A DNA stretch of 64,000 nt from Bacillota bacterium (GTDB lineage Bacteria; Bacillota; Bacilli; Alicyclobacillales; SLC66): assembly GCA_021821055.1 (NCBI GenBank), contig JAKACX010000004.1, positions 1 through 64,000 on the forward strand. The letters run 5' to 3'. Numbering within the stretch: position 1 is the first letter of the stretch; each line of letters begins with the position of its first letter. This document shows positions 4,639 through 52,551 of the stretch, in pieces. A program made the translations under genes and the position numbers. The notes beneath the pieces are model-generated. The model had not been told where the DNA came from, made no database searches, and worked only from the letters and a program-made list of their open reading frames with translations.

Positions 4639-4706
4639 GATTCGCACAGCGGGTGGCGTTGGCAGCGCCAAATATATCGCGGTAAGATATAAAAGGGTGG
4701 ACTTTG

Positions 4707-4726
4707 GATGTGTGATCATCCACATC
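4707..4726. promoter_or_regulatory. Inverted repeat upstream of the nar operon
   Basis: GATGTG-N8-CACATC lies 40 bases before the 81-aa gene that opens the nar operon. It resembles half of an FNR box (TGTGA at 4711) but is not a full match. It may be an operator for the operon. Part of it belongs to a 29-base sequence repeated at 42520. Confidence 0.4.
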
Positions 4727-4766
4727 AGGGCGGGCGCGATCACATGTCCTTCAGGAGGGATGGCGC

Positions 4767-11621: not shown

Positions 11622-11828
11622 CGGGTCTCCCCGGAAATGGGTCTGTGCCCGCCGCCCCTATCCCTTTGCTCCTGCCGCCCGGACAGCGCTGCCGTTAGAC
11701 TCGCGACGAGCACAGGGACACGGGCGACCCGGCCTACCCTCGGCCCACCGCTGGTTGGTCCGCGCCACGGCGACCCGGCGAATTTTCATCCGTGGCTGGT
11801 GGTGCGCCCGAGCCATGTGACGCCGGGT

Positions 11829-12356
11829 CTACAGGCGCAACTGGACGCCAAGTCGCGCCAACTCCAGCTTGTGCTGATGGGAGAGGTCACTCAGGATGCC
11901 AAGCGCAGTTTCCGTCACAGTCACCAGTACGCTGCGTCCGTCTTTGGGGTTCGGTGAACGTTCGACCAATCCCAGGCGCTCACAACGTTGAATGAGGCCG
12001 ATGCAACTGTGATGCCTGATCTGCAACCGCTCCGCCAGTTCGGAAGGCGTGGCGTACGCCCGTCCGGGGTAGCCCTGGATTGCCAATAGGAGTTGGTGCT
12101 GCTGCGGCGTGAGGCCGGCGGAACGCGCGGCATTTTCACTGAAATGCAGGAATTTGCGCAGGCGGTAGCGAAATTCGGCGAGTTGTTCGTAGTCTTCCTT
12201 CGGCAGTGCATCGGACAAGACAAATCCTTCTCTCTGTGACTTCCTCTTGGCGTCCGGCTTTGGGTTCAGGCGGAAGTTGTCTCCCTGCCTCAGGGAACGC
12301 GGTTCAATCGTCTTCGCGCGTACGTCTCCCGCATCGACGACATTGTCATTTTTCAT
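11829..12356 (-). CDS. MarR family transcriptional regulator
   Basis: Winged-helix regulator. The core DYEQLAEFRYRLRKFLHF, LTPQQHQLLLAIQGYPG, PSELAERLQIRHHSCIGLI and VERSPNPKDGRSVLVTVTE is a textbook MarR DNA-binding domain. Start uncertain: ATG 12356 gives 175 residues with an unusual basic N-terminal extension, TTG 12383 is further out, and TTG 12218 (AAGGA upstream) would give a more typical 129 residues. It is divergent from the phosphotransferase gene with only about 60 bases between, so it may control that gene. Ligand unknown. Confidence 0.85.
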   Translation of the reverse strand: MKNDNVVDAGDVRAKTIEPRSLRQGDNFRLNPKPDAKRKSQREGFVLSDALPKEDYEQLAEFRYRLRKFLHFSENAARSAGLTPQQHQLLLAIQGYPGRAYATPSELAERLQIRHHSCIGLIQRCERLGLVERSPNPKDGRSVLVTVTETALGILSDLSHQHKLELARLGVQLRL

Positions 12357-24307: not shown

Positions 24308-24333
24308 CGCCAGATCATCCTCCATCCGAGTTT

Positions 24334-24375
24334 GCCATGTGCGGCGCATCCGCACGAAAGCGAATTATGAAAATG
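24334..24375 (-). repeat. Partial copy of the dispersed 93-bp element
   Basis: The first 22 bases are identical to the other copies, then after 11 variable bases ATGAAAATG matches at the same spacing; similarity ends there. It lies directly upstream of the DUF3050 gene, reading toward it. Confidence 0.75.
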
Positions 24376-27846: not shown

Positions 27847-27936
27847 TGAAGGTTCGAGTGCCCGAAGACCGTTGGTCGCATTTCGTCCGCGGGGATCACC
27901 CGAGTGCTGGCCTCTCGGAGTGTATGATAGTTAGGC

Positions 27937-28029
27937 CGCCATGTGCGGCGCATCCGCCCACCAGTGAGTCATGAACATGCGATTCAATCAGGCGCCGCAG
28001 ATGGCACCGTGCAGATTCGCTCGCATTTT
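27937..28029 (-). repeat. Dispersed 93-bp element, copy A
   Basis: About 90 percent identical (84 of 93) to the inverted copy at 37703-37795, without gaps. Near its end, in the sense direction, lies a small hairpin with core GCGG-ATGC-GCCGC. The sense strand reads toward the GT4 operon. Confidence 0.85.
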
Positions 28030-28188
28030 ACGGGTAGCTGGACATGTGATAGAATTACAGGTATGGGCTCATCTGAAGATCGGTGGATCATGAAAGTATG
28101 AGTCGATGCAGCTTTTCGGGTGGCGAGAGACAGTCGCATGGCGAAGACAGGACTGTACTGGAGTTCGGGAACTTGGGAGGCTGTTTGG

Positions 28189-31100
28189 ATGGAAAATGGA
28201 GCAACAGACCCGAACGAAGGTTCGGTATATTCCACCGCACGCGGGGACCCTTTCGTTGTCGGCGTCGCGGCTTCGTCGGTCCAGGCAGAGGCTGTGAGCG
28301 AGATATTGCGGCACACGCCATCGGAAAATGGACTGACTTTTATTATTTTTCCGTATGATGCGACGGAAGATGACTATATTTCGGTCGGGGCCCTGTCCAC
28401 CTGTACTTCGATGACATGCGTCTACGTACAGGAAGAGACAATCGTCGAGGCCAATCATGTCTATGTCGTGCCCCCGAAAAAAGTGGTGACGGTTCGATCG
28501 GGGAAGCTATGCCTTATAGATGTATCGACAACTATCGACAGTGTTCTCCCTATCGATAATTTTATGTTTGAACTGGCAGACGCCTTTGGCAGCAGGGCGG
28601 TCTGTGTGTTGTTTTCAGGAGACGGCAACTACGAACCGCTGGGTATGGACGCGATCAATCTCGCCAACGGTCTCGTGATTGTGGCCGCGTCCAACGCATC
28701 CACCGGTGCCCGGGCGGAACATGATGCTTCGGAACGTGCACACGTGGAGTATGTTTCCTCACTCCAAGAGATCCCACAATTGATCGCCGAGCATGCTGGA
28801 TTTTCGGGGAATCCGGAAGAGGAACCCGCCTTGGAGGCGCGCTTGGCGCTGTTTTCCCTCCTCCAGCAGGCAACGGGGGTTGACTTTACGTTGTACAAGC
28901 AGCCCGCCCTCCTGCGCCGGGTCCAGAAGAGGATGCGAGAGTGCGGGGTCAACTCGTTACAAGAATACAATCAGGTGCTGCGCGACGATGACAGTGAAAT
29001 CAGCGAGTTGCAACGCAGACTCCTCATCGGGGTCACACAGTTTTTTCGCGATCCCGCGGCATTTTCCTTCGTGTACGACCATGTAATTCCCTCGATCATG
29101 GGGCGTCGAGGAGACAAACGACAAATCAGGATCTGGGTGGCGGGCTGCTCGACAGGTGAAGAAGTGTACTCCATGGCCATTTTGTTTAAACAGGCCATGC
29201 GCAACGCTCAGAGAGACATGGATGTGAAGATCTTTGCGACGGACGCCGACCAGGCATCCATCCAGCATGCCGGTCGTGGACTTTATCCAGGGACCATCGC
29301 GAGAAACCTGACCGCGGAGCAGTTGGGACTCTACTTCATACCTGCAGGTGACAACTATCAGATCGCCAAGGAAATCAGGAGCATGGTCATATTCGCTCAA
29401 CACAATCTCTTGCGCGACCCTCCGTTCAGTCAACTGGATCTCGTCGTATGCCGGAATTTTTTGATCTATTTGAAGCCCGAGGCACAAAAAAAGGTGATAT
29501 CGCTCTTTCTCTTCGCGCTAAAACCGGGCGCATTCCTTTTTTTGGGCCCAAGCGAGACACTCGGGTCGTTCTCAACCGTGTTCCTGGCGGTCAACGCTAA
29601 GTGGAATATATTCCAGGTGACGCACAAGATCCGATCAGATTCGTTGGATTCGGTGGGTCAACTGGGCATCAGACAGTCGTTTCAGAAGCAGAAGATTGCC
29701 GACAGGGTCAGGGAAGTGAATCGAAACACCAAAATGGATCTTCTCTATAACAGGTTGATTGAGGAGTATGTGCAGCCATTCATTCTGGTTGATGAGAACA
29801 ACGAGATTGTGCTGATCAATGGCGTCGCAAGGGATTATCTCACCATTTCGTCAGGGAGGCCAAGCCATTACCTGTATAAGATGGTACCCGCGTATCTGGC
29901 GTCTGTGATCAGAACTGCGCTTCACAGAGCGCGCACGAAGCAAATGGAGACGGAACGCAGTGAGTTGATTTCCATGGCGGGTATGACGAAACCTGCCTTC
30001 TGTATTTACGCAAAGCCGCTTCATGTGGCGGACAGGAATCTCGTCCTCATTTTCTTTGAAGCATCCACCGGTGTGACAGATCAGGCGTCCAACGTCCATG
30101 ACGGCGTCCAGGGGACACCGGAAGCGATCACGTTGTCGGATCATGCGGGTCGGTACATCGAGGAATTGGAGTTCGAATTGTCGCAGGCCAAGGAGACACT
30201 TCTGTCCACCACCGAAGAACTGGACAGTTCTAATGAAGAATTCCAGACTGTCAATGAAGAGTTGCTCGTCGCGAATGAGGAACTGCAGAGTGCCAACGAG
30301 GAATTGCAGTCAGTGAATGAAGAACTCATGGCCATGAATGGGGAATCCCAACGACAGATTCACGAACTCGTTGAATTGAATGATGACATGACCAATTTCT
30401 TCATCAGCACCAATATCGCGACGCTTTTCCTCGACAGCAATACAAGCATCCGCAAATTCACACCGGCTATCGCGCGCGAGATAAACGTGATTGCAACGGA
30501 TATCGGACGCCCGCTGGGAGACCTCTCGCACAAGCTGAGGTATGATGAGTTGCTCGCTGACATAGACTCCGTGCTGCACACGGGGCAGGAGATCGAGCGA
30601 GAGGTGCAGAGTTACAGCGAGAAATGGTTCACGGCAAGGGTACTGCCCTATCGCACGGGTGACCCGGGCATTCAGGGTGCGGTGCTTACGCTGACCGACA
30701 TCACCGGTTTGAGAAAGATGACAGACGAACTCCTTGTTCTGTCGTATGCGATCTCGCAAAGCCCCGGGTGCATTCTGATGACAGACACGGAGCGCCGCAT
30801 CAAATACATCAATCTGGAGTACAGTGAGCAAACGGGTCATTCATTGCATGACTTACTGGATACCAAGCTGCAACTGTACTCTGACAAGATGACGGATCAA
30901 GAGTTGGAGGCAATATGGGGGACACTCGGGTCGGGACACAATTGGGTTGGCGAGTTGGTGAACCAGAACAGAAACGGTGAGGACTACTACGAGTGGGTTT
31001 CCCTGAAACCCATAAAGAACAATCGAGGGGTCATAACGCACTACCTTAAGATAGGGGAGGACCTGACCGAGAAATACAAAACGATAGAGATCCTGAGAAA

Positions 31101-31758
31101 ATCGGAGCTCCTGTCCGCTGTAGGTCAACTGGCTGCCGGCATTGCACACGAGATTCGCAATCCCCTCACCGTACTCAAGGGGTTTATTCAATTGATAGCG
31201 CCCGACATGCGCAGCACACACTATACCGACATCATGCTTGCCGAATTCTCCAGGATCGAGGGTATTGTCAATGAACTCTTGTTGCTTGCGCGTCCTCAGG
31301 AAACGCATTTCGAGAAGAGCAATGTGCTAATGATTTTGCAGGATGTTATGATCTTGCTTGATACGCAGGCAATGCTGAGCAACGTGGCCATAGAGGCGGA
31401 CTACACAGAGGCGGTTCCTTGGGTGGATTGTGTACCGAATCAATTGAAACAGGTGTTTATTAACATCCTGAAGAACGCGATTGAGTCGATGCCTCAAGGA
31501 GGGCGAGTAACCGTCGGGGTAGGCTGGATCAGGACAGATATGGTGTCGATCCGTATCACTGACGAGGGACGGGGTGTTCCGGACGATAAGCTCGCCAATT
31601 TGGGAACGCCATTCTATACGACCAAGGAAAACGGAACAGGGCTTGGACTGCTGGTGAGCGCCAAAATCATCGAGAATCACCATGGCAGGATGGAGATTCG
31701 GAGTCAGTTGGGACTGGGGACCACGGTCGAGATCTTCTTGCAGGCAAGCGGGTCATGA
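28189..31758 (+). CDS. CheB-like/CheR/PAS/histidine kinase fusion protein
   Basis: A 1,189-residue cytoplasmic signalling protein. Order: degenerate CheB methylesterase domain (residues 22-195), CheR methyltransferase (about 215-480; WVAGCSTGEEVYSMAILF and NLLRDPPFSQLDLVVCRN), a long coiled coil rich in NEEL repeats (about 690-740), PAS domains, then HisKA (AAGIAHEIRNPLTVLKGF) and an ATPase domain (DEGRGVPDDKLANLGTPF, ENGTGLGLLVSAKII). The CheB part has FPYDATEDD where active enzymes have QHLDPxH. ATG 28189 is chosen for its excellent GGGAGG eight bases upstream; GTG 28120 and ATG 28138 are alternatives. The NarL-type regulator at 33986 is a possible partner. Confidence 0.87.
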   Translation: MENGATDPNEGSVYSTARGDPFVVGVAASSVQAEAVSEILRHTPSENGLTFIIFPYDATEDDYISVGALSTCTSMTCVYVQEETIVEANHVYVVPPKKVVTVRSGKLCLIDVSTTIDSVLPIDNFMFELADAFGSRAVCVLFSGDGNYEPLGMDAINLANGLVIVAASNASTGARAEHDASERAHVEYVSSLQEIPQLIAEHAGFSGNPEEEPALEARLALFSLLQQATGVDFTLYKQPALLRRVQKRMRECGVNSLQEYNQVLRDDDSEISELQRRLLIGVTQFFRDPAAFSFVYDHVIPSIMGRRGDKRQIRIWVAGCSTGEEVYSMAILFKQAMRNAQRDMDVKIFATDADQASIQHAGRGLYPGTIARNLTAEQLGLYFIPAGDNYQIAKEIRSMVIFAQHNLLRDPPFSQLDLVVCRNFLIYLKPEAQKKVISLFLFALKPGAFLFLGPSETLGSFSTVFLAVNAKWNIFQVTHKIRSDSLDSVGQLGIRQSFQKQKIADRVREVNRNTKMDLLYNRLIEEYVQPFILVDENNEIVLINGVARDYLTISSGRPSHYLYKMVPAYLASVIRTALHRARTKQMETERSELISMAGMTKPAFCIYAKPLHVADRNLVLIFFEASTGVTDQASNVHDGVQGTPEAITLSDHAGRYIEELEFELSQAKETLLSTTEELDSSNEEFQTVNEELLVANEELQSANEELQSVNEELMAMNGESQRQIHELVELNDDMTNFFISTNIATLFLDSNTSIRKFTPAIAREINVIATDIGRPLGDLSHKLRYDELLADIDSVLHTGQEIEREVQSYSEKWFTARVLPYRTGDPGIQGAVLTLTDITGLRKMTDELLVLSYAISQSPGCILMTDTERRIKYINLEYSEQTGHSLHDLLDTKLQLYSDKMTDQELEAIWGTLGSGHNWVGELVNQNRNGEDYYEWVSLKPIKNNRGVITHYLKIGEDLTEKYKTIEILRKSELLSAVGQLAAGIAHEIRNPLTVLKGFIQLIAPDMRSTHYTDIMLAEFSRIEGIVNELLLLARPQETHFEKSNVLMILQDVMILLDTQAMLSNVAIEADYTEAVPWVDCVPNQLKQVFINILKNAIESMPQGGRVTVGVGWIRTDMVSIRITDEGRGVPDDKLANLGTPFYTTKENGTGLGLLVSAKIIENHHGRMEIRSQLGLGTTVEIFLQASGS

Positions 31759-31830
31759 GTGAGCATTGAGCATGCGTGTCGCTGTCGCGAAACAGGTCGG
31801 CTAGAAGGGCCAACGCCGCCGCGTAAAAGA

Positions 31831-31871
31831 CAAGACAGCGCTGACGCAGGTTGCGCGACAGCGCTGTCTTG
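31831..31871. terminator. Bidirectional hairpin terminator
   Basis: CAAGACAGCGCTG and CAGCGCTGTCTTG form a perfect 13-bp stem with a 15-base loop, between convergent genes. On the minus strand TCTTTT follows directly; on the plus strand GTTTCTC follows. It probably ends both the kinase gene and the cytochrome b cluster. Confidence 0.75.
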
Positions 31872-31901
31872 GTTTCTCTAAGGAAGGCAGGCGTGCTCCT
31901 G

Positions 31902-32891
31902 CTAGACGTGCCGAGGCGCGACGCTGCCCTTCTCGCTTTTCGGTTTGTCTCGCCGGTACCAGTCCCGCCAAATCAGCTTGTGGAGCGGAAGCAATTTCGG
32001 CAATCGATTCAGTCCTGGCACCCATGGCACGAAGATGAGCACGAGGAACAGCAGACCCACTGTGTAGGCGGCCATCTGATCGCCCGCGTCGCTCGTGTTC
32101 CAGGGCGGAATCTGATAGAAGAAGGTGTACGGCGTCAGCCACCAAGGACCGGGATACGCCTGCTCGTCGTGGTTGATGCCCCACTGTTCACCGGACATGT
32201 TCAGTGCTCCGGCGATATTGTGGAGAGCCGCCCCCTGAAGAAAGAGCAGGTTGTTCTGAACGTTCCAGCGATACGCGCCCTGATTTGTCTCTCGCGCCAG
32301 CGCTCCGGACAGAAGACCGGAACGCGCCAGTTGCAGTTCCGCGTTCATCATATAGGAGACAGGTCCGTAGTTCCCGGCGGGCAGTTGCACGGTCGTGCCG
32401 ACGACCTTCGCCTTGTTCAGCGCATCGGTCAGGTTCTGCGACCACTTGGCCTGCGTGGCGCCGGAGGCCGTCTCGTATGTGTGCAAGGCCTGTTTCAATG
32501 ACACGTTGCCGGACGCAGTCGCCAGCATGGTCAGCGGCGTGAGCACATCATCTTTCGCGGTATTCAGCGGATAGGGCGTGCCCCACCACGTCTGCGGGGA
32601 GAAGCCTGCAATCGACTGTATGCTCCCCGTTCCGTCGTTGTAAGGCGGACCGTACGACGCCATCTCTCCGGTGCCGTCCAGGTCGCCGAGCGCCGTCTGC
32701 TCGACCAGTACCGGACTTTGCACGGCCACCTGCTGATTCGTGACGGCCGGGCGGTACGGGGCGCCTGCGATGGCGGCCACGACCAGCACGATGACGGCGA
32801 TCACGCCGAGGCTTACGACTCCCTCTTTCACCATGTCAAAGTCCTTCATCGGGAACCGCTTGGCGTCGGGATACTGATAGTCTCTTTTCAT
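31902..32891 (-). CDS. Cytochrome b-associated membrane protein
   Basis: A 329-residue protein: one N-terminal membrane helix (residues about 28-45, GVIAVIVLVVAAIAG), a large extracytoplasmic part of about 200 residues, then a hydrophobic segment (YTVGLLFLVLIFVPWVPG) and a basic tail. It is placed like subunit IV of b6/bc complexes but lacks the usual quinol-site PEWY motif. The start overlaps the cytochrome b stop by four bases. It probably forms a complex with that cytochrome; the soluble part is unrecognised and has no haem or cluster motif. Confidence 0.7.
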   Translation of the reverse strand: MKRDYQYPDAKRFPMKDFDMVKEGVVSLGVIAVIVLVVAAIAGAPYRPAVTNQQVAVQSPVLVEQTALGDLDGTGEMASYGPPYNDGTGSIQSIAGFSPQTWWGTPYPLNTAKDDVLTPLTMLATASGNVSLKQALHTYETASGATQAKWSQNLTDALNKAKVVGTTVQLPAGNYGPVSYMMNAELQLARSGLLSGALARETNQGAYRWNVQNNLLFLQGAALHNIAGALNMSGEQWGINHDEQAYPGPWWLTPYTFFYQIPPWNTSDAGDQMAAYTVGLLFLVLIFVPWVPGLNRLPKLLPLHKLIWRDWYRRDKPKSEKGSVAPRHV

Positions 32892-33511
32892 GAGTGGTCA
32901 CCAACTTTGGCGTTCTCAGTGCCTTCATCCGGATAGGGCGGCACCACACCCTTGCGCCGCACCGCGACCAGGTGCCAGCCGATCAGGGCGATCAACACGG
33001 CGGGCAGCACCGCAATGTGCAGACCGTAGATCTGTCCGTTGTCCAGCGCGTTGAAGAGTCCGTTTACCCCCGCTCCGTTGAACGCGTCCTTGCTCTGGAC
33101 CTGGTTCCACTGTGAGAAGAAGTCTCCCCGCGAGAGGTAGCCCGTGAACGCGGTGAGGACCCCAACGCCGAATGATAGGGCGCCGAGCACCCATGTGAGC
33201 GCCCTGCCTTCGCGCCATGATCCCATGAAGAACTGGACGACGAGATGCATGGTCATGAAAAAGAAGAATGCCTGCACGCTCCAAAAATGTATGGCGCGAA
33301 AGTATTCGCCGACGGCCGATGTCTGATACCAGACCGGGCTCTTCGCCGCCATCACGATCCCGGATACAATAACGACCACCAGACTGCTGAGCGTGAACAC
33401 CCCGAAACTGTACACCAGGGAATTCACGTAAACCGGCTGTTCCGACGGAAGCAGGCGATCCCACGACAGTTGCTCGGTCGCCCGCTTCCTCATGCGCGTT
33501 GTCCAGTTCAC
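32888..33511 (-). CDS. Cytochrome b/b6 N-terminal domain protein
   Basis: A 207-residue, four-helix dihaem cytochrome b. Two histidine pairs that would hold the b haems are visible: AIHFWSVQAFFFFMTMH in helix 2 and GLHIAVLPAVLIALIGWH in helix 4. The quinone-site turn TGYLSRGDFFSQWNQ follows helix 3. GTG 33511 has GGGAGG nine bases upstream and overlaps the stop of the small upstream gene. No Rieske iron-sulfur or cytochrome c1/f gene is present beside it. Confidence 0.88.
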   Translation of the reverse strand: MNWTTRMRKRATEQLSWDRLLPSEQPVYVNSLVYSFGVFTLSSLVVVIVSGIVMAAKSPVWYQTSAVGEYFRAIHFWSVQAFFFFMTMHLVVQFFMGSWREGRALTWVLGALSFGVGVLTAFTGYLSRGDFFSQWNQVQSKDAFNGAGVNGLFNALDNGQIYGLHIAVLPAVLIALIGWHLVAVRRKGVVPPYPDEGTENAKVGDHS

Positions 33512-33624
33512 CGCTGAGTCCCTCCCTTGTGACCGGGGTATTTGAATGCGACGAACGCTATGAAGACGATCAGCCAGAGGTACCCGGCGTAGTAGTTCGG
33601 CCAAGCGTTCGAAAGATCAACCAT
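33508..33624 (-). CDS. 38-residue membrane protein, first gene of the cytochrome b cluster
   Basis: Short ORF read directly on the minus strand. It starts MVDLSNAWPNYYAGYLW, continues with one hydrophobic helix (LIVFIAFVAF) and ends in a basic tail. GGGGTGA stands eight bases before ATG 33624, and the stop overlaps the cytochrome b start as GTGA, so the reading frame is well supported by coupling. It is probably a small structural subunit of the cytochrome b complex, comparable in size to the Pet peptides of b6f (comparison only). Confidence 0.7.
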   Translation of the reverse strand: MVDLSNAWPNYYAGYLWLIVFIAFVAFKYPGHKGGTQR

Positions 33625-33985
33625 GTCATTTCACCCCATTTCCTGTCGTGAGTGTCATGTTCATCTCCAATGATGCCATCAAGAAATTACCCGCACTTGA
33701 GTTGAACAGACTATTTCGCTGTAATTACTGTAACTATGTTTTCTAACCAATATAATGTGTACATAAGTTTTCCTGCATGGGCCGTTATAGTCTGAATGGA
33801 TCATGCGAATTTGTGCATCTGGGGACATGCATGAGGAAATGACGGGGTACATTTGGACCCCCGTTCTTTAGTGATTGCCACTCATGCGCAGAATGGCCTG
33901 AAGTCCTACGCTACAGACAGGGGAACAGTGACAACGCCGTCCATTATATGGTAATATCACGGTTCCCCTTGAGGGGGTTTATCCA
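33625..33985. other. Divergent intergenic region
   Basis: About 360 bases without a gene. TATAAT at 33751-33756 may serve the rightward regulator gene. CTGTAA occurs twice, three bases apart (about 33719-33733), and could be a regulator site for the leftward cytochrome genes. Confidence 0.4.
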
Positions 33986-34687
33986 TTGGGTGGAAGTGGA
34001 TCGCGATTGCCGGAGCCACCCGGACCCGTCAGTATCCGCGTCGTTGTGGCTGACGACCATCCGCTGTTTCGCAAGTCTGTCGTCGACATCCTGCAGAAAT
34101 CCGGCGGTATACAAGTGGTCGGAGAGGCGGCGAACGGCCAGGAGGCGGTGGACCTGACATGCGGCCTTGAGCCGGATGTCCTTGTCCTGGATCTCGCCAT
34201 GCCCGTGATGGATGGAACGGAGGCCACGGCGCGCATTCGCCTGGCGGGGGTCGCGACGCACATCCTCATCCTGACCGCGACGGAGGATGTGCAATCCCTG
34301 TTTGAAGTGTTTCGCAACGGCGCGCAGAGTTGTCTGATCAAGACGGTCCACCCGGACGAACTGGTGAGCGCTATCCGCACGGCGGCCTCTGGCGGCACGG
34401 TCATTCCGAGCCACCTTGTGTCGGCGATCTGGTCCGAGATGTCTCAGTCATCACCCCCCAAGGCGCCGGAGACCAGGCCCCTGACCGTCCGGGAAATAGA
34501 AGTTCTGCGCCAGATCAGGACCGGGGCTTCGAACCGAGATATTGCCGAGAACCTGAACATCAGCGAAAATGCGATCAGGAACTGCACGCACGCCATTTTC
34601 AGCAAACTCCGCGTCGCAAACCGCGCGCAGGCGATCGCGTACGCCGTTCGGGAAGGGTTGTTTGAAAAGAGCGGCGGCGATGCGTGA
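33986..34687 (+). CDS. NarL/FixJ-type response regulator
   Basis: A 233-residue two-component regulator. The receiver domain has VVVADDHPLFRKSV (acidic pocket), phosphoacceptor Asp in DVLVLDLAMPVMDG and the late Lys in CLIKTVHPDEL. The output domain is a LuxR-type helix-turn-helix: LTVREIEVLRQIRTGASN and SENAIRNCTHAIFSKLRV. TTG 33986 is supported by GAGGGGG eight bases upstream. No kinase gene is adjacent; the fusion kinase at 28189-31758 is the nearest candidate. Targets may include the flanking oxidase or cytochrome b genes. Confidence 0.88.
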   Translation: MGGSGSRLPEPPGPVSIRVVVADDHPLFRKSVVDILQKSGGIQVVGEAANGQEAVDLTCGLEPDVLVLDLAMPVMDGTEATARIRLAGVATHILILTATEDVQSLFEVFRNGAQSCLIKTVHPDELVSAIRTAASGGTVIPSHLVSAIWSEMSQSSPPKAPETRPLTVREIEVLRQIRTGASNRDIAENLNISENAIRNCTHAIFSKLRVANRAQAIAYAVREGLFEKSGGDA

Positions 34688-34820
34688 CCGCCGTTTGATT
34701 CTCTCCGAGCGCACGCGGGAGAGATTTGACGGCGCGGCATATCTGTCTATTCGGGAATATTTGGGATCGTATAAGGGAAAACATAGCAGACGATGAACAG
34801 CGGTGAAGGGTGAAGGCACC

Positions 34821-35120
34821 ATGCGCGTCCGGCCGCCAGGGACCGTGAAGGTGCTTCTATTGTCGTCTTCGGCCGGGGGATACGCCGTTGCCTGGTCTGT
34901 CCGCATGGGCCGCTGGTCCATACCGTTTGACGTCCCCTGGAGCAGTCCGCCGCGCGCGCCCGCGATGGCCCGCTTGGTGACGATCGGCGGACCGGCGGCA
35001 TTTGCCTCCAGTCTGTGCGGCGCCTTTGAGGAAGGCGTCCTGCCCTGCTTCGACACGGCGAGTCGGCGCGTCACATTCCGGGGGAGGCTTCACGGATGGA
35101 CCTTCGAGGAGCGTGGATGA
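34821..35120 (+). CDS. Doubtful small ORF before ctaG
   Basis: A 99-residue reading frame with an AAGG-type site before ATG 34821, overlapping the ctaG start. It has a hydrophobic stretch near the N-terminus but no recognised domain. It may be only leader sequence of the ctaG transcript. Confidence 0.3.
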   Translation: MRVRPPGTVKVLLLSSSAGGYAVAWSVRMGRWSIPFDVPWSSPPRAPAMARLVTIGGPAAFASSLCGAFEEGVLPCFDTASRRVTFRGRLHGWTFEERG

Positions 35121-35860
35121 CAGAGTGGCGTCCCGAACTGCTGCTGCTGTCGGTGCTTCTCGGCGTAATCTATTTCCTGCTGTTGTCCGAATTTGTCGCG
35201 CAACGCGTGGGATGGGCGCGCCGCGCCGCCTTTGTGCTGGCCCTGATGGTCCTGTACGCTGCGGCGGGTCCGCTCGCGCCATGGGCGCAACAACGCCTGT
35301 TCACTGCGTACGTGGGTGACATGCTGTTGCTGACATTCGTGCTGCCCTGGCTGCTGATCGCCGGAGTCCCCGTCGTCCTCGTGGAGCGGGCGGCAACCGT
35401 GCAGTGGGTGGCGCGACTGATCCACTTTGCCACGAGACCGATCATTGCCCTCGTTGTGTTCAATGCGCTCGTCACGGCCACGCTGTTACCGCCTGTTCTG
35501 AAGTGGAACCTCACGCTAAACGGGTTTCACGCCCTCCTGCAAAACCTTCTCATGCTGTCGGCGGTCTGCTTCTGGGCCCCGATGGTTCCCCGATGCGGTG
35601 CGTCGGGGAGTATGGGGCGGGGCATGCAACTGCTTTATATTATCTATTCTTCTAATTTTATGATGCCCATTATCGTGTGGCTGTTCCTGGGCGACGCCCG
35701 GTATCCCGCGTTCAGTCGACCGACAACAGTGTGCGCCGGGGACGCAACGGCGGATCTGCAGACGGGCGGAGCACTCATGCTGGTCACGATGTATCTGACG
35801 TACGGCTATCTGGCTGTCCGATTGTTCCGTCGGTCCGACGAATCCGTCTGGTACGAGTGA
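35096..35860 (+). CDS. ctaG: Cytochrome c oxidase assembly factor CtaG (caa3 type)
   Basis: A 254-residue protein with about seven helices. Typical segments are YVGDMLLLTFVLPWLLIAGV in the first half and GFHALLQNLLMLSAVCFWAP in the second. CtaG-family proteins are needed for building caa3-type oxidases in Bacillus, probably in copper delivery. ATG 35096 has GGGGGAGG eight bases upstream; ATG 35117 is a second possible start with GAGGAG. It begins the oxidase gene block. Confidence 0.85.
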   Translation: MDLRGAWMTEWRPELLLLSVLLGVIYFLLLSEFVAQRVGWARRAAFVLALMVLYAAAGPLAPWAQQRLFTAYVGDMLLLTFVLPWLLIAGVPVVLVERAATVQWVARLIHFATRPIIALVVFNALVTATLLPPVLKWNLTLNGFHALLQNLLMLSAVCFWAPMVPRCGASGSMGRGMQLLYIIYSSNFMMPIIVWLFLGDARYPAFSRPTTVCAGDATADLQTGGALMLVTMYLTYGYLAVRLFRRSDESVWYE

Positions 35861-35944
35861 GGGCGATCATCCAAGGGAATGCGTCCATTGCGCGCAGGAG
35901 ACACTTCCATACGAGAGGGGGAGCGTCCATGACGTCGCAAATGC

Positions 35945-36214
35945 GTGCAATGGGTTGGAATGCAGCTCCTTTTGACGGGAGTCGCCGTCGCTGTTCTCGG
36001 GGTGCTGCTGGATCGGGTCGTGCTTCCAGCCATCGGCAGTTTTCCGTCGCTGTATGTGGACAAAATGGGCTTTCTGCTGGTGATCTCGCTGCTCTCTCTG
36101 GGCTTGTCGGGCAGTCATATCGTTCCGTTCTACATGGCCGAGGCCGTTGCCATCCTGCTGGCCGTCTGCGAGGAATGGCTGCATCGAAGAGTTTTGCCGC
36201 GACAATATGAATAA
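35945..36214 (+). CDS. Small three-helix membrane protein in oxidase cluster
   Basis: A frame of about 89 residues with clear hydrophobic helices (LLLTGVAVAVLGVLLDRVVL, FLLVISLLSLGLSGSHIVPF, AEAVAILLAVCEEWL). The start is unclear: the strong site GAGAGGGGGAGCGTCC leads to ATG 35929, which is in a different frame. Either GTG 35945 or ATG 35960 is used, or one base has been gained near 35947, as removing one A restores a continuous frame from 35929. It probably belongs to the oxidase assembly genes. Confidence 0.6.
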   Translation: MQWVGMQLLLTGVAVAVLGVLLDRVVLPAIGSFPSLYVDKMGFLLVISLLSLGLSGSHIVPFYMAEAVAILLAVCEEWLHRRVLPRQYE

Positions 36215-36368
36215 TATCCTATTATGGGAACATGCTACCGTAGAGGCGCGCGTGCTGTGGTGGACAAGGCGTCCGACCGGGATCCCGGACGCTCTGTCTG
36301 GAGTCATTGCGCCTGCATCGGGGTCTTGATCCCATGTTTCCTACACTGCTTCGCCGGGAGGCAACTGT

Positions 36369-36902
36369 GTGCCGACTAGCCGTGTCGCCATGCTGCTCTC
36401 TGCTCTTGCCGCCATGCTCATCGTGGGCTGCGGGCCTCACCAGGAGAACAGCGCGCCATCTTCGCTCCTGGTGGATGTTGCGGCCGCGAAGACAGCCTAC
36501 ATATACCTCACGGCAGGGTACAATTCGAACAACCTCGACGCCAATTTTGACGGGTACGCCAACGGCCGTCTCGTGATTACAGTGCCCGTCGGTTACCGCG
36601 TGGTGCTCAACGTGACGAACGACGGCGGCATCCCGCACGACGCCGGCGTGTACACGGTCCAAAACCAGCTTGCGTTCGCGGGAGCCGGGGATTCCACGAC
36701 GGCTCTCGAGCACAACCCGTCAGCGGGCATCATGCCGGGGCAGTCGGCCACCTTCCGGTTTGTGGCGGACCGGATCGGCTCATACCGTCTCGCCGACCTG
36801 CTCTACAGTTTTCCGGCACACGGCCGGATGCACGATTCACTGGGCATGTGGGCCGCGTTTCGCGTGGCGCGGACTGGTTCGCCGCGCGTCATGGCGGACT
36901 GA
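36369..36902 (+). CDS. Sulfocyanin-like cupredoxin lipoprotein
   Basis: A 177-residue lipoprotein with signal MLLSALAAMLIVGC. The domain pattern NGRLVITVPVGYRVVLNVTN, then NDGGIPHDAGV and SLGMWAAFRV, matches sulfocyanin, the blue copper donor of archaeal haem-copper oxidases. His90, His151 and Met160 sit at expected ligand places, but the expected Cys before His151 is Tyr146 (segment LLYSFPAHG), so a normal type 1 copper centre is unlikely. GGGAGG stands seven bases before the GTG 36367/36369 pair. It may be an electron carrier with an altered site or a copper chaperone. Confidence 0.75.
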   Translation: MPTSRVAMLLSALAAMLIVGCGPHQENSAPSSLLVDVAAAKTAYIYLTAGYNSNNLDANFDGYANGRLVITVPVGYRVVLNVTNDGGIPHDAGVYTVQNQLAFAGAGDSTTALEHNPSAGIMPGQSATFRFVADRIGSYRLADLLYSFPAHGRMHDSLGMWAAFRVARTGSPRVMAD

Positions 36903-36982
36903 TGCGGTGTGCGCCGGCTGCAGAAACCGTTCCGGGCGGCGCTGCCCCGTCGCCCGGGATCGAAGAGGAGGCTTGAATCGCC

Positions 36983-37645
36983 GTGGAACGTGACCGCGCC
37001 GCGCGCCCGTCCCCTGCACAGCGAACACCGAACCCGTACTGGAACGGGCGCGTCATGTGGCTTGTCGTCAGCGTCGCAACCGCAGTGGCTGTCATCGCGC
37101 TGTTCTGGCAGCGTCCACTGCAGAACGCCTGGACGGTGATGGCAGGTCGGCACGCACAGCCCGGTACGGTTCTCATCTTCCAGTTCGACTATGGCTACAC
37201 GCCGCAGGATATCACGTGGCGGGTCGGCGACAGGGTGACGATTGCGCTGCGCAATCAGAGCCCGTCGCACTGGCACGAGATGATGATCGGACGCGGGGCG
37301 GACGTCACGCCGACCGCCTTTGGACCCCTGCCGACGCAGTTTGAGGAAGACTTCTGGAGTGGTGTGCGGGTGACCATCAGCCACGCGCGCATGGTGGACA
37401 ACATCGTGCTGCACGATGCCATCGTGACGTTCCGGGGGCCGCAGCCGAGTGTCGCCACAGGCGGCAATTTCAGTCCGACGCTGCAACCGGGAGGCGCTCT
37501 GGACATGACATTCACGGTGCCGGACAAACCGGGGGTGTGGCACTACGGTTGCTTCGTGCAACAGTACATCCACTACATGGACGGCATGAAGGGCACCATC
37601 ACCATTCTGCCGGCTTCCTCTTTGCCGGCCTCCTCGCCGTCCTAG
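36983..37645 (+). CDS. Membrane-anchored blue copper protein (cupredoxin)
   Basis: A 220-residue protein with one N-terminal helix (residues about 24-42) and an outer cupredoxin domain. Copper ligands are in the classic order: His98 (or His96) in SPSHWHEMMIG, then Cys190-x6-His197 and Met202 (or Met199) in HYGCFVQQYIHYMDGM. A complete type 1 centre is expected. GTG 36983 has AGGAGG upstream at 11 bases. Lying before coxB, it is a good candidate for the electron donor to the oxidase in place of cytochrome c. Confidence 0.82.
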   Translation: MERDRAARPSPAQRTPNPYWNGRVMWLVVSVATAVAVIALFWQRPLQNAWTVMAGRHAQPGTVLIFQFDYGYTPQDITWRVGDRVTIALRNQSPSHWHEMMIGRGADVTPTAFGPLPTQFEEDFWSGVRVTISHARMVDNIVLHDAIVTFRGPQPSVATGGNFSPTLQPGGALDMTFTVPDKPGVWHYGCFVQQYIHYMDGMKGTITILPASSLPASSPS

Positions 37646-37702
37646 CTTGGGCAAACGCCCTGGCGGCGTGCAGCGGCGGAACCGGGACCGGGTGATACAC
37701 GG

Positions 37703-37795
37703 AAAATGCGAGCGAATCTGCACCCTGCCATCTGTGGCGCCTGATTGAATCGCATTTTCATGGTTTGCTGGTGTGCGGATGCGCCGCACATGGCG
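37703..37795 (+). repeat. Dispersed 93-bp element, copy B
   Basis: About 90 percent identical to copy A (27937-28029) in opposite orientation. It contains the perfect hairpin GTGCGG-ATGCG-CCGCAC. The sense strand reads toward coxB. A degenerate match to the 29-base repeat of 4711 and 42520 follows at about 37816-37838. Confidence 0.85.
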
Positions 37796-37899
37796 ATCTC
37801 TTGCGATTATGGGACGGTCCAGGTCAGGGCAGGCGCGGAGCAGTCTGCATGCGTACGACCCGGTTCTCGGCGGCCATTTGGAGATTCATCGCGCCTGCG

Positions 37900-37944
37900 C
37901 CCCGACAGAACCCCGGACTTGAATGTTCCGGGGTTCTGTCGGGG
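37900..37944 (+). promoter_or_regulatory. Strong 18-bp-stem hairpin upstream of coxB
   Basis: Positions 37900-37917 and 37927-37944 are perfect reverse complements (18 bp, beginning CCCCGACAG), with a 9-base loop; partial pairing continues outside. No T-run follows. It ends 29 bases before the coxB start. It could be an attenuator, an RNA-processing or stability hairpin between the copper-protein genes and coxB, or part of a mobile repeat. Confidence 0.7.
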
Positions 37945-37973
37945 GGCGGGCGCCAGGAAGGCAGGGGTGCAGT

Positions 37974-42382: not shown

Positions 42383-42519
42383 GCGCTGCATGCGGGCAGA
42401 AGGCGGGGGCGCGCGCCCGCGCCAAACGCGCCAGGCTCTGTAAGTGTCCATAAGCACAGAAACTGTTCGTGCCGGGTGCCCATGTCGTGCCGAGGAGCGT
42501 ACCGCAACCCGAAGGGAAC

Positions 42520-42548
42520 TGTGATCATCCAAACCGGGGCAGGCGCGA
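42520..42548. repeat. 29-base repeat shared with the nar operon leader
   Basis: 25 of 29 bases equal 4711-4739, beginning TGTGATCATCCA. A weaker relative lies at 37816-37838. It sits about 20-45 bases before the mer promoter. Confidence 0.55.
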
Positions 42549-44492: not shown

Positions 44493-46157
44493 ATGGGCGA
44501 ACAAACAGGGCAGGGAGAGCGGGTCCGGCTGGTCGTGAAAGGCATGACGTGCACAAGTTGCGAGGAGCACGTGGCGACCGCGCTCCAGGGAGTGGGCGCG
44601 CAGGATGTGGTGGTTCATTTTCGCCGCGACGAGGCGACGTTTGACTTGTCCGACGCGGGTCTGCTGGCATTGGCAAAAAGGGCGGTGCAAGACGCCGGGT
44701 ACCGTCCCGGAGACGCGGTGTTCGTCGCGCGGGGGACGCCGCTTCAGGGCGCGCAGGGCGGCCACGACTTCGATCTGCTCATCATCGGTTCGGGCGGCGC
44801 GGCGTTCTCGGCGGCCATTCAGGCTGTGTCCCACGGGGCAAGGGTCGGCATGGTGGAGCGCGGCACGATCGGCGGCACGTGCGTCAACGTCGGCTGCGTC
44901 CCGTCGAAGAACATGCTGCGCGCGGCCGAGATCAATCACCTGGCAAAGGACCACCCATTTCGCGGGCTGGCCACGTCCGCCGGGCCTGTGGACCTGAAGC
45001 AACTGGTCGAACAGAAGGATGAACTGGTCGGTGAGCTGCGCCAGCACAAATACATTGACCTGATCGCGGAGTACGGCCTGGAGCTTGTCCGCGGGGAGGC
45101 GCGGTTTGTCGATCCCGGAGCGGTGGAAGTGGACGGAAGGCGCATCACGGCGGGCAAGTTTCTCATTGCCACAGGTGCTTCGGCGGCCGTTCCCGCTGTT
45201 GCGGGGTTGCAGGATGTGGACTACCTTGACAGCACGGCAGCGCTTGAACTCAAGGAACTACCTGAGCGCCTCGCGGTGATCGGATCGGGGTACATCGGCC
45301 TGGAACTGGGTCAACTGTTTCACCAACTGGGCTCTCGCGTGACGCTCATGCAGCGCAGCGCGCGCCTGCTGCAGGCGTATGAACCGGAGGTGTCGGACGC
45401 GCTCGCGGCGGCGCTTCGGGAGCAGGGCATGGAGATCCTCACCGGTGTGACGTACGACGGTGTCGAGCAGGACGGGCGGATCAAGCGGGTGCGCATCACG
45501 GTGGACGGCGAACCGCGCGTGATCGAGGTGGACGCCCTGCTGGTGGCGGCGGGACGGACGGCAAACACGTTGGGGCTCAATCTCGATGCGGCGGGCGTCG
45601 CTGTCGGCGACCGCGGCGAGGTGGTCGTGGACGAGTATCTGCAGACGTCGAATCCGCGCGTGTATGCGGCGGGCGACGTGACAATGGGGCCGCAGTTCGT
45701 TTACGTGGCGGCGCACGAGGGCGCGGTGGTCGCCGAGAACGCGGTGGGCGGAGGCCGCAGGCGGGTCGATCTGACGGCTGTCCCGCAGGTCACCTTCACG
45801 CGTCCCGCGGTGGCCACGGTCGGACTGACCGAGGCGCAGGCCGAGCGCGCGGGGCTGGAGGTGATTTCGTCGGTGTTGCCGCTGGCGGCCGTACCGCGGG
45901 CATTGGCGAACCGGGAGACCACTGGGGTGTTCAAGCTCGTTGCCGACGCCGGAACGCGCAGGCTGCTCGGCGCTCACATCGTGGCGGAAAACGCCGGGGA
46001 CGTCATCTACGCCGCGGTCCTCGCGGTCAAGTTTGGCCTGACCGTCGAGGACCTGCGCTCGACCCTCGCGCCGTATCTCACCATGGCGGAGGGCCTCAAG
46101 CTGGCGGCGCTGACGTTTGACAAGGATGTGGCAAAGCTGTCCTGTTGCGCAGGCTGA
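44493..46157 (+). CDS. merA: Mercuric reductase with N-terminal heavy-metal domain
   Basis: A 554-residue flavoprotein that reduces Hg(II) to volatile Hg(0) with NADPH. The N-terminal metal-binding domain has GMTCTSC (Cys20, Cys23). The FAD site begins [18 protein letters not shown]; the redox pair is in [13 protein letters not shown]; the NADPH site is [13 protein letters not shown]; the C-terminal pair LSCCAG hands mercury to the active site. All catalytic elements are intact and the length is normal. ATG 44493 has GGGGTG seven bases upstream; the longer open frame reaching back into the CcdA gene is out-of-frame shadow. Confidence 0.95.
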
Positions 46158-52303: not shown

Positions 52304-52551
52304 AATTTCAGTCCTGATCGGCTTGGATGGAGAGAGTAGGCCCGCGGCTACGGCACAGAGATCCGGTGATGGGTGCGAACCGGACCGTGAGCGGCGCTGA
52401 AGTACACTCCGGAGCCACCCGAGTGAAGCGGAGTAGTTCGGGTCGGTGCGTGAAGAGCGCGCCGTTATCTCAATCAAGGTGGAGAGCAGGCTTCTCCATT
52501 AGGGTGGTACCGCGAGCAGATCTCGTCCCTAGAGGGGCGGGCTTTTTTGCG
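52304..52551 (+). promoter_or_regulatory. T-box riboswitch leader
   Basis: The conserved T-box sequence AGGGTGGTACCGCG is at 52501-52514, with TGGT facing a tRNA acceptor end ACCA (discriminator A). An intrinsic terminator follows: CTCGTCCCT pairs with AGGGGCGGG (52522-52541), then six T residues (52543-52548). Stem I begins at GGAGAGAGTAG (about 52330) and closes at CACTCCGGAGCC. The likely specifier on its 3' side is TAC in GAAGTACACTCC, pointing to tRNA-Tyr; GTA (Val) or ACT (Thr) cannot be excluded. Uncharged tRNA should allow read-through into the aldolase gene. Confidence 0.9.
52522..52548 (+). terminator. Intrinsic terminator of the T-box leader
   Basis: Nine-base GC-rich stem (with G-T pairs) and a run of six T. 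It is the default structure when tRNA is charged. Confidence 0.85.

Follow-up and report, generated by a model that had tools for sequence, protein, structure and literature searches.

A family of 105-bp mobile elements inserted 3' of NAG in probable relatives of Alicyclobacillus, with two mutually exclusive conserved folds

Three copies of a short repeat face genes within a 64-kb stretch of bacterial DNA (hereafter, the window), which comes from a draft assembly of 2.34 Mb in 101 contigs that is 74% complete (hereafter, the source genome). Is this repeat a small mobile or REP-like element, or a regulatory RNA or operator unit shared by the genes beside it?

Copies in the window and in related genomes

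A first-pass annotation of the window had described a 93-bp unit in two copies of opposite orientation and about 90% identity (27937-28029 and 37703-37795), with a partial copy at 24334-24375. In an independent repeat search, the two full copies came out as inverted arms of 100 nt (27937-28036 and 37696-37795, 89% complementary) and the partial copy as 24328-24375, which matched the 37.7-kb copy at 83% over 48 nt and the 27.9-kb copy at 81% over 42 nt. The hairpin core that the copies were said to have in common, GCGGATGCGCCGC, is present in all three. The repeat is real, and its length had been put slightly short, as the unit spans 103-106 bp (about 105 bp); it is gene-free and too short to encode a transposase. 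The window boundaries in Table 1 were set by analogy with empty sites, and the direction used here, from left end to right end, is the opposite of the "sense" of the first-pass annotation.

Table 1 Positions of the element family and its predicted pairings. Positions are those of the window unless a locus is named; type I is the 105-bp element.
Feature	Position	Strand	Details
Type I element copy 1	27935..28037	+	Target flank GTTAG at 27930-27934; right end ACGGGTAG
Type I element copy 2	37695..37797	-	Target flank CAAGAG (+ strand CTCTTG, from 37798); right end GTGTAT
Truncated type I copy	24331..24375	+	Only left end, left hairpin and ATGAAAAT motif
Left-end hairpin of copy 1	27942..27960	+	TGTGCGG / CCGCCCA; covarying pairs, 44 copies
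Right-end stem of copy 1	27973..28030	+	GAACATGCGA / TCGCATTTTA; covarying pairs, 44 copies
Long-range stem of copy 1	27938..28005	+	GCCATGTGCGGCGC / GCGCCGCAGATGGC; excludes left-end hairpin; two-sided changes in 8/14 pairs
Type II (longer non-coding sister element), degenerate copy	11627..11831	-	Shares ends with the 105-bp element
Type III copies	L233 691-1379, L236 865-1400, L241 757-1184		End in TATTTTCCGGGTAG or a one-base variant

Other features were seen in the window. Another dispersed repeat (CAGGGCAGGCGCGA-like) has three copies, at 4706-4739, 37805-37838 and 42515-42548, the second of which directly adjoins the 37.7-kb element. An inverted repeat of 33 bp with a 9-nt gap lies just upstream of coxB (37885-37959), and a T-box leader at 52315-52533 (+) scored above the Rfam threshold.

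The element had been called dispersed, and a genome-wide search bore this out. With the 37.7-kb copy as the query, blastn returned more than 40 matches from the source genome (E<0.01), and a covariance model, trained on 28 copies from this genome and 2 from a related one (G016), found 61 matches, intact and decayed; since the model took in five flanking positions, it is slightly biased toward TAG-flanked copies. Chance resemblance of the copies is excluded by these numbers.

Further copies were found in relatives. Across 61 genomes (the source genome and relatives), sequence-level matches were restricted to two, the source genome and G016, a species that shares its family but not its genus. 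In G016 the units measure 105 bp and occur twice in tandem; their arms are quite different from those in the source genome, yet the ATGAAAAT and ...ATTTTCCGGGTAG segments are the same. The covariance model detected 14, 16 and 11 matches in three species of the G016 genus, and 2 good matches in a genome from a different family of the same order; all other matches were weak, and those in G046 and G054 were left out of the evidence. When a 399-genome sample of the class was searched, good matches were obtained only within the same family, plus two marginal ones. Plasmids and two pattern scans of viral contigs gave no matches to the element, and none of the titles listed from the literature on repeats in Acidibacillus and Alicyclobacillus was relevant. 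Among named genomes, the closest relative of a window protein came from Alicyclobacillus hesperidum, so that the host is probably related to Alicyclobacillus in the Bacillota.

Target sites, sister elements and neighbouring genes

Insertion is precise, directly 3' of NAG and mostly of TAG. In the left flank of 73 intact copies, T was found at position -3 in 49, A at -2 in 60 and G at -1 in 70, and the right flank of the same copies carried no signal (<0.2 bit per position). The element's own right end is also TAG (T in 63, A in 62 and G in 67 of the 73). As the right end stays TAG when the target is CAG or GAG, this TAG belongs to the element, and any duplication is limited to AG at most. The left end is marked by a ACCCGCATG or ACCGCCATG hairpin, and the right end has the form GAAAAT...ATTTTCnnGnTAG. 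There are no terminal inverted repeats, the left end ACCGCCATGTGCGGC being unrelated to the reverse complement of the right end CTACCCGGAAAATAC. A subfamily in the source genome with the right end CAAGATAG has the targets CAAGAG or AAAGAG, which resemble that end.

Joined-flank searches revealed five loci in the related genus that are filled in one species and empty in a sister species, and the element moved after these related species diverged. Four of the empty sites have clean junctions (CAACAG^ACGCG, AGTGAG^GAGGG, CATTAG^TGACT, and CTAG or CCAG^AAAGG); at the fifth (GATAG^), the sequences differ 3' of the junction. A sixth insertion, copy C73:44638 of the source genome, splits a relic IS200-type tnpA (L045, G000:C73, ~44600-44870). 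Excising this copy between GCGGAG and CTCTTG restores the tnpA frame and gives a gap-free alignment with the intact tnpA of a relative (LREAFAELLPGRRCSLLGFGG vs LRELFAEILSGWRCSLLEFGG). No target duplication was seen at the empty sites beyond the shared AG, where a 2-bp duplication is indistinguishable from none.

The 105-bp element has longer and shorter sisters. About 40 non-coding type II elements, of roughly 215-270 bp, have both ends in common with type I, and non-coding type III elements of ~500 bp share the right-end motif, as does an element of ~71 nt in G016 that consists of just two hairpins. Type I copies often sit directly after the TAG of type II, type III or 71-nt elements.

Three further observations were made during this survey. 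A fragment of 50-90 nt, related to positions 124-212 of type II, is present in ~30 copies each in G007 and G013, spread over many contigs. A GGGGAACTGT-containing sequence recurs near C60:11047, C38:1233 and C23:12431 and in L037, possibly as another repeat family. Locus L236 (1809-3599) holds an ORF that resembles a glycosyltransferase and contains a tandem HEP amino-acid repeat.

That the element is always oriented toward a gene was true of the three window copies and did not extend to the genome, where 30 of 55 copies were so oriented (p=0.59), with genes called approximately by a simple hexamer model. Copies co-directional with both neighbours numbered 20 in the source genome, against 18 in the opposite direction. 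The related genus had 23 co-directional copies against 10 (p=0.035), counts that are not fully independent, as some sites are shared. This bias accompanies copies that begin at upstream stop codons: six copies in the related genus and four in the source genome start at, or at most one base from, an upstream stop codon, and none was so placed at a start codon.

From the flanking protein sequences, we take some copies to be inserted between atpG and atpD, fliL and fliM, and rpmI and rplT, with cox and glycosyltransferase genes as further presumed neighbours; the element must therefore be tolerated inside essential operons. Copies often lie between genes, probably because stop codons would supply the target as TAG or TGA-G and insertion there would do little harm, so that orientation toward a gene may be a by-product. 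The family shows how such elements enter essential operons, between genes and after stop codons.

The co-directional bias in the related genus, where copies lie just before ribosome-binding sites, would suit a cis-regulatory RNA or operator (a leader, or riboswitch-like) that is retained upstream of genes, with mobility no more than its means of spread. Insertion after stop codons accounts for the same bias, however, and the source genome is unbiased by either count. The neighbouring genes are unrelated, with no conserved downstream class, and sister species lack the element at the same sites.

Conserved pairings within the element

Three pairings were scored on a MAFFT alignment of 44 copies. 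The left hairpin was paired in 271 of 308 cells, a value that none of 2000 shuffles equalled, with pair switches U-A/A-U, G-C/U-A and C-G/U-A. The right-end and long-range stems were jointly paired in 86.4% of cells (73.1% when shuffled), with a covariation of 0.357 against 0.153, and none of 500 shuffles did as well. Sequence relatedness inflates such shuffle tests; the slid controls retain this relatedness and still separate, with a covariation of at most 0.11. The base pairing supposed for the hairpin is therefore conserved, and compensatory changes back all three pairings.

The long-range stem and the left hairpin are mutually exclusive, since their 5' arms overlap, and the unusual trait of the element is that both of these folds are conserved. 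Folding as single-stranded DNA places the two states close together; of four consensus sequences tested, three favour the long stem. Wobble pairs fill 93 cells on the left-to-right strand and 55 on the other, an asymmetry that hints that the left-to-right strand is the one that folds.

Covarying structures would also suit a regulatory RNA, as would the absence of the long stem from the 71-nt two-hairpin element, by which the stem may be dispensable for mobility. Against this, no Rfam family matches the element.

Candidate mobilisers and comparison with known systems

The choice of a small non-autonomous mobile or REP-like element, one of the two readings first offered for the repeat, is upheld by the empty sites, the one-sided target preference, the many and tandem copies and the covarying hairpins. 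The one-sided target, the lack of duplication, the two end hairpins and the strand asymmetry correspond to IS200/IS605-like chemistry and to the definition of palindrome-associated transposable elements (PATEs). We therefore regard the repeats as a PATE/REP-like family of non-autonomous mobile DNA of about 105 bp, probably moved in trans via single-strand chemistry of the IS200/IS605 type. The enzyme would be a HUH (Y1-type) transposase that acts in trans, excising and inserting the element as single-stranded DNA. In the manner of IS200/IS605, it would recognise both end hairpins and cleave 3' of NAG and TAG.

Matching ends were absent from every Y1, TnpB, IS91-type and IS110 locus inspected in carriers; the carrier genomes are drafts (the source genome included), from which a partner may be missing, and the inspection covered part of the Y1 and TnpB copies. 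The Y1 elements that are present end differently (TTGACTTCC... / ...GATCAA or ...TTCAAG), and the Y1 and TnpB loci examined were rejected as autonomous parents given that their ends differ. IS91-type Y2 enzymes, with one gene in each of only two relatives and mismatching ends, were likewise rejected as the mobiliser. A DDE-type MITE was discarded for want of terminal inverted repeats and target duplication.

To our knowledge, IS200/IS605 elements have no requirement for a long-range stem, and this counts against the explanation that we prefer. The element may be selected to switch folds, with end hairpins formed for transposition and the long-range stem masking the left hairpin, either to make mobility self-limiting or for a second function as RNA, and may be moved by an undescribed TAG-specific transposase; we offer this only tentatively, as a somewhat unlikely account.

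It is unlikely that the element is moved by some other, unrecognised enzyme, for example a new transposase or a recombinase of the IS110 kind that uses CT/AG as its 2-bp core, in which case the internal complementary segments would be read as duplex inverted repeats or RNA. No Y1 partner matched among the loci inspected, AG is common to both flanks, as a 2-bp core would give, and each end has a complement inside the element, all of which such an enzyme would accommodate. The IS110/bridge-RNA version was nevertheless rejected: its transposase is absent from the source genome and from two of the three copy-rich relatives, and the target preference lies on a single flank, whereas a bridge-RNA target is expected to span both. 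The wobble asymmetry, moreover, indicates a single strand.

A classical REP/BIME system spread by a RAYT (TnpAREP) is very unlikely, even though the element resembles one in being intergenic and tandem, with GTAG/TAG beside an imperfect hairpin, and in having TAG overlap stop codons as in GTAG REPs (PMC3733652). With 105 bp, unlike hairpins at its two ends and a head-to-tail order, its unit is not a single palindrome of 20-40 bp, and the empty sites assign the left-flank TAG to the target. Among PF01797 matches in four carrier draft genomes, no RAYT was recognised, those inspected being IS200-type or fragments. A regulatory RNA or operator common to several genes is most improbable as the main explanation, given species-specific insertions next to unrelated genes and near-random orientation in the source genome.

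The mobile family that we favour raises a concrete question: by which enzyme is the element moved, and why is a long-range stem conserved that competes with the left-end hairpin? Known systems offer partial parallels. REPINs (PMC3116915) are likewise short non-autonomous repeats thought to move as a unit via a trans-acting Y1 enzyme, but they comprise two inverted REPs, whereas the two ends of the 105-bp element are unlike each other. GTAG REPs with TnpAREP/RAYT (PMC3733652, PMC2817692, PMC8266576) are similar in their TAG/GTAG adjoining a hairpin, intergenic location, TAG over stop codons and many copies; the present family differs in its 105-bp unit, two unlike hairpins, head-to-tail tandems and the lack of a RAYT among the matches searched. 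With IS200/IS605 elements (IS608, ISDra2), it shares insertion directly 3' of a short one-strand motif, a hairpin near each end, a 3' terminal motif of its own and the lack of target duplication, but it carries neither tnpA nor tnpB, and its motif is TAG.

The closest features in common are with the PATEs of Haloquadratum walsbyi, for which new insertions were seen in spite of mostly broken Y1 genes (PMC3119063). Both families lack terminal inverted repeats, bear a palindrome close to each end and insert without duplicating the target, and both are too short to code. Both also come in heterogeneous sizes that share end sequences, with very short terminal-only versions and strain- or species-specific insertions, in hosts whose Y1 genes are mostly broken. 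The 105-bp family differs in being bacterial (probable relatives of Alicyclobacillus, Bacillota), in its NAG/TAG target and in an extra covarying long-range stem, and no parental IS605-type element was found for it among the draft-genome loci inspected. The family is thus PATE-like and bacterial; several of its empty sites are precise and its structure is backed by covariation, so that its target rule and boundaries are known and testable.
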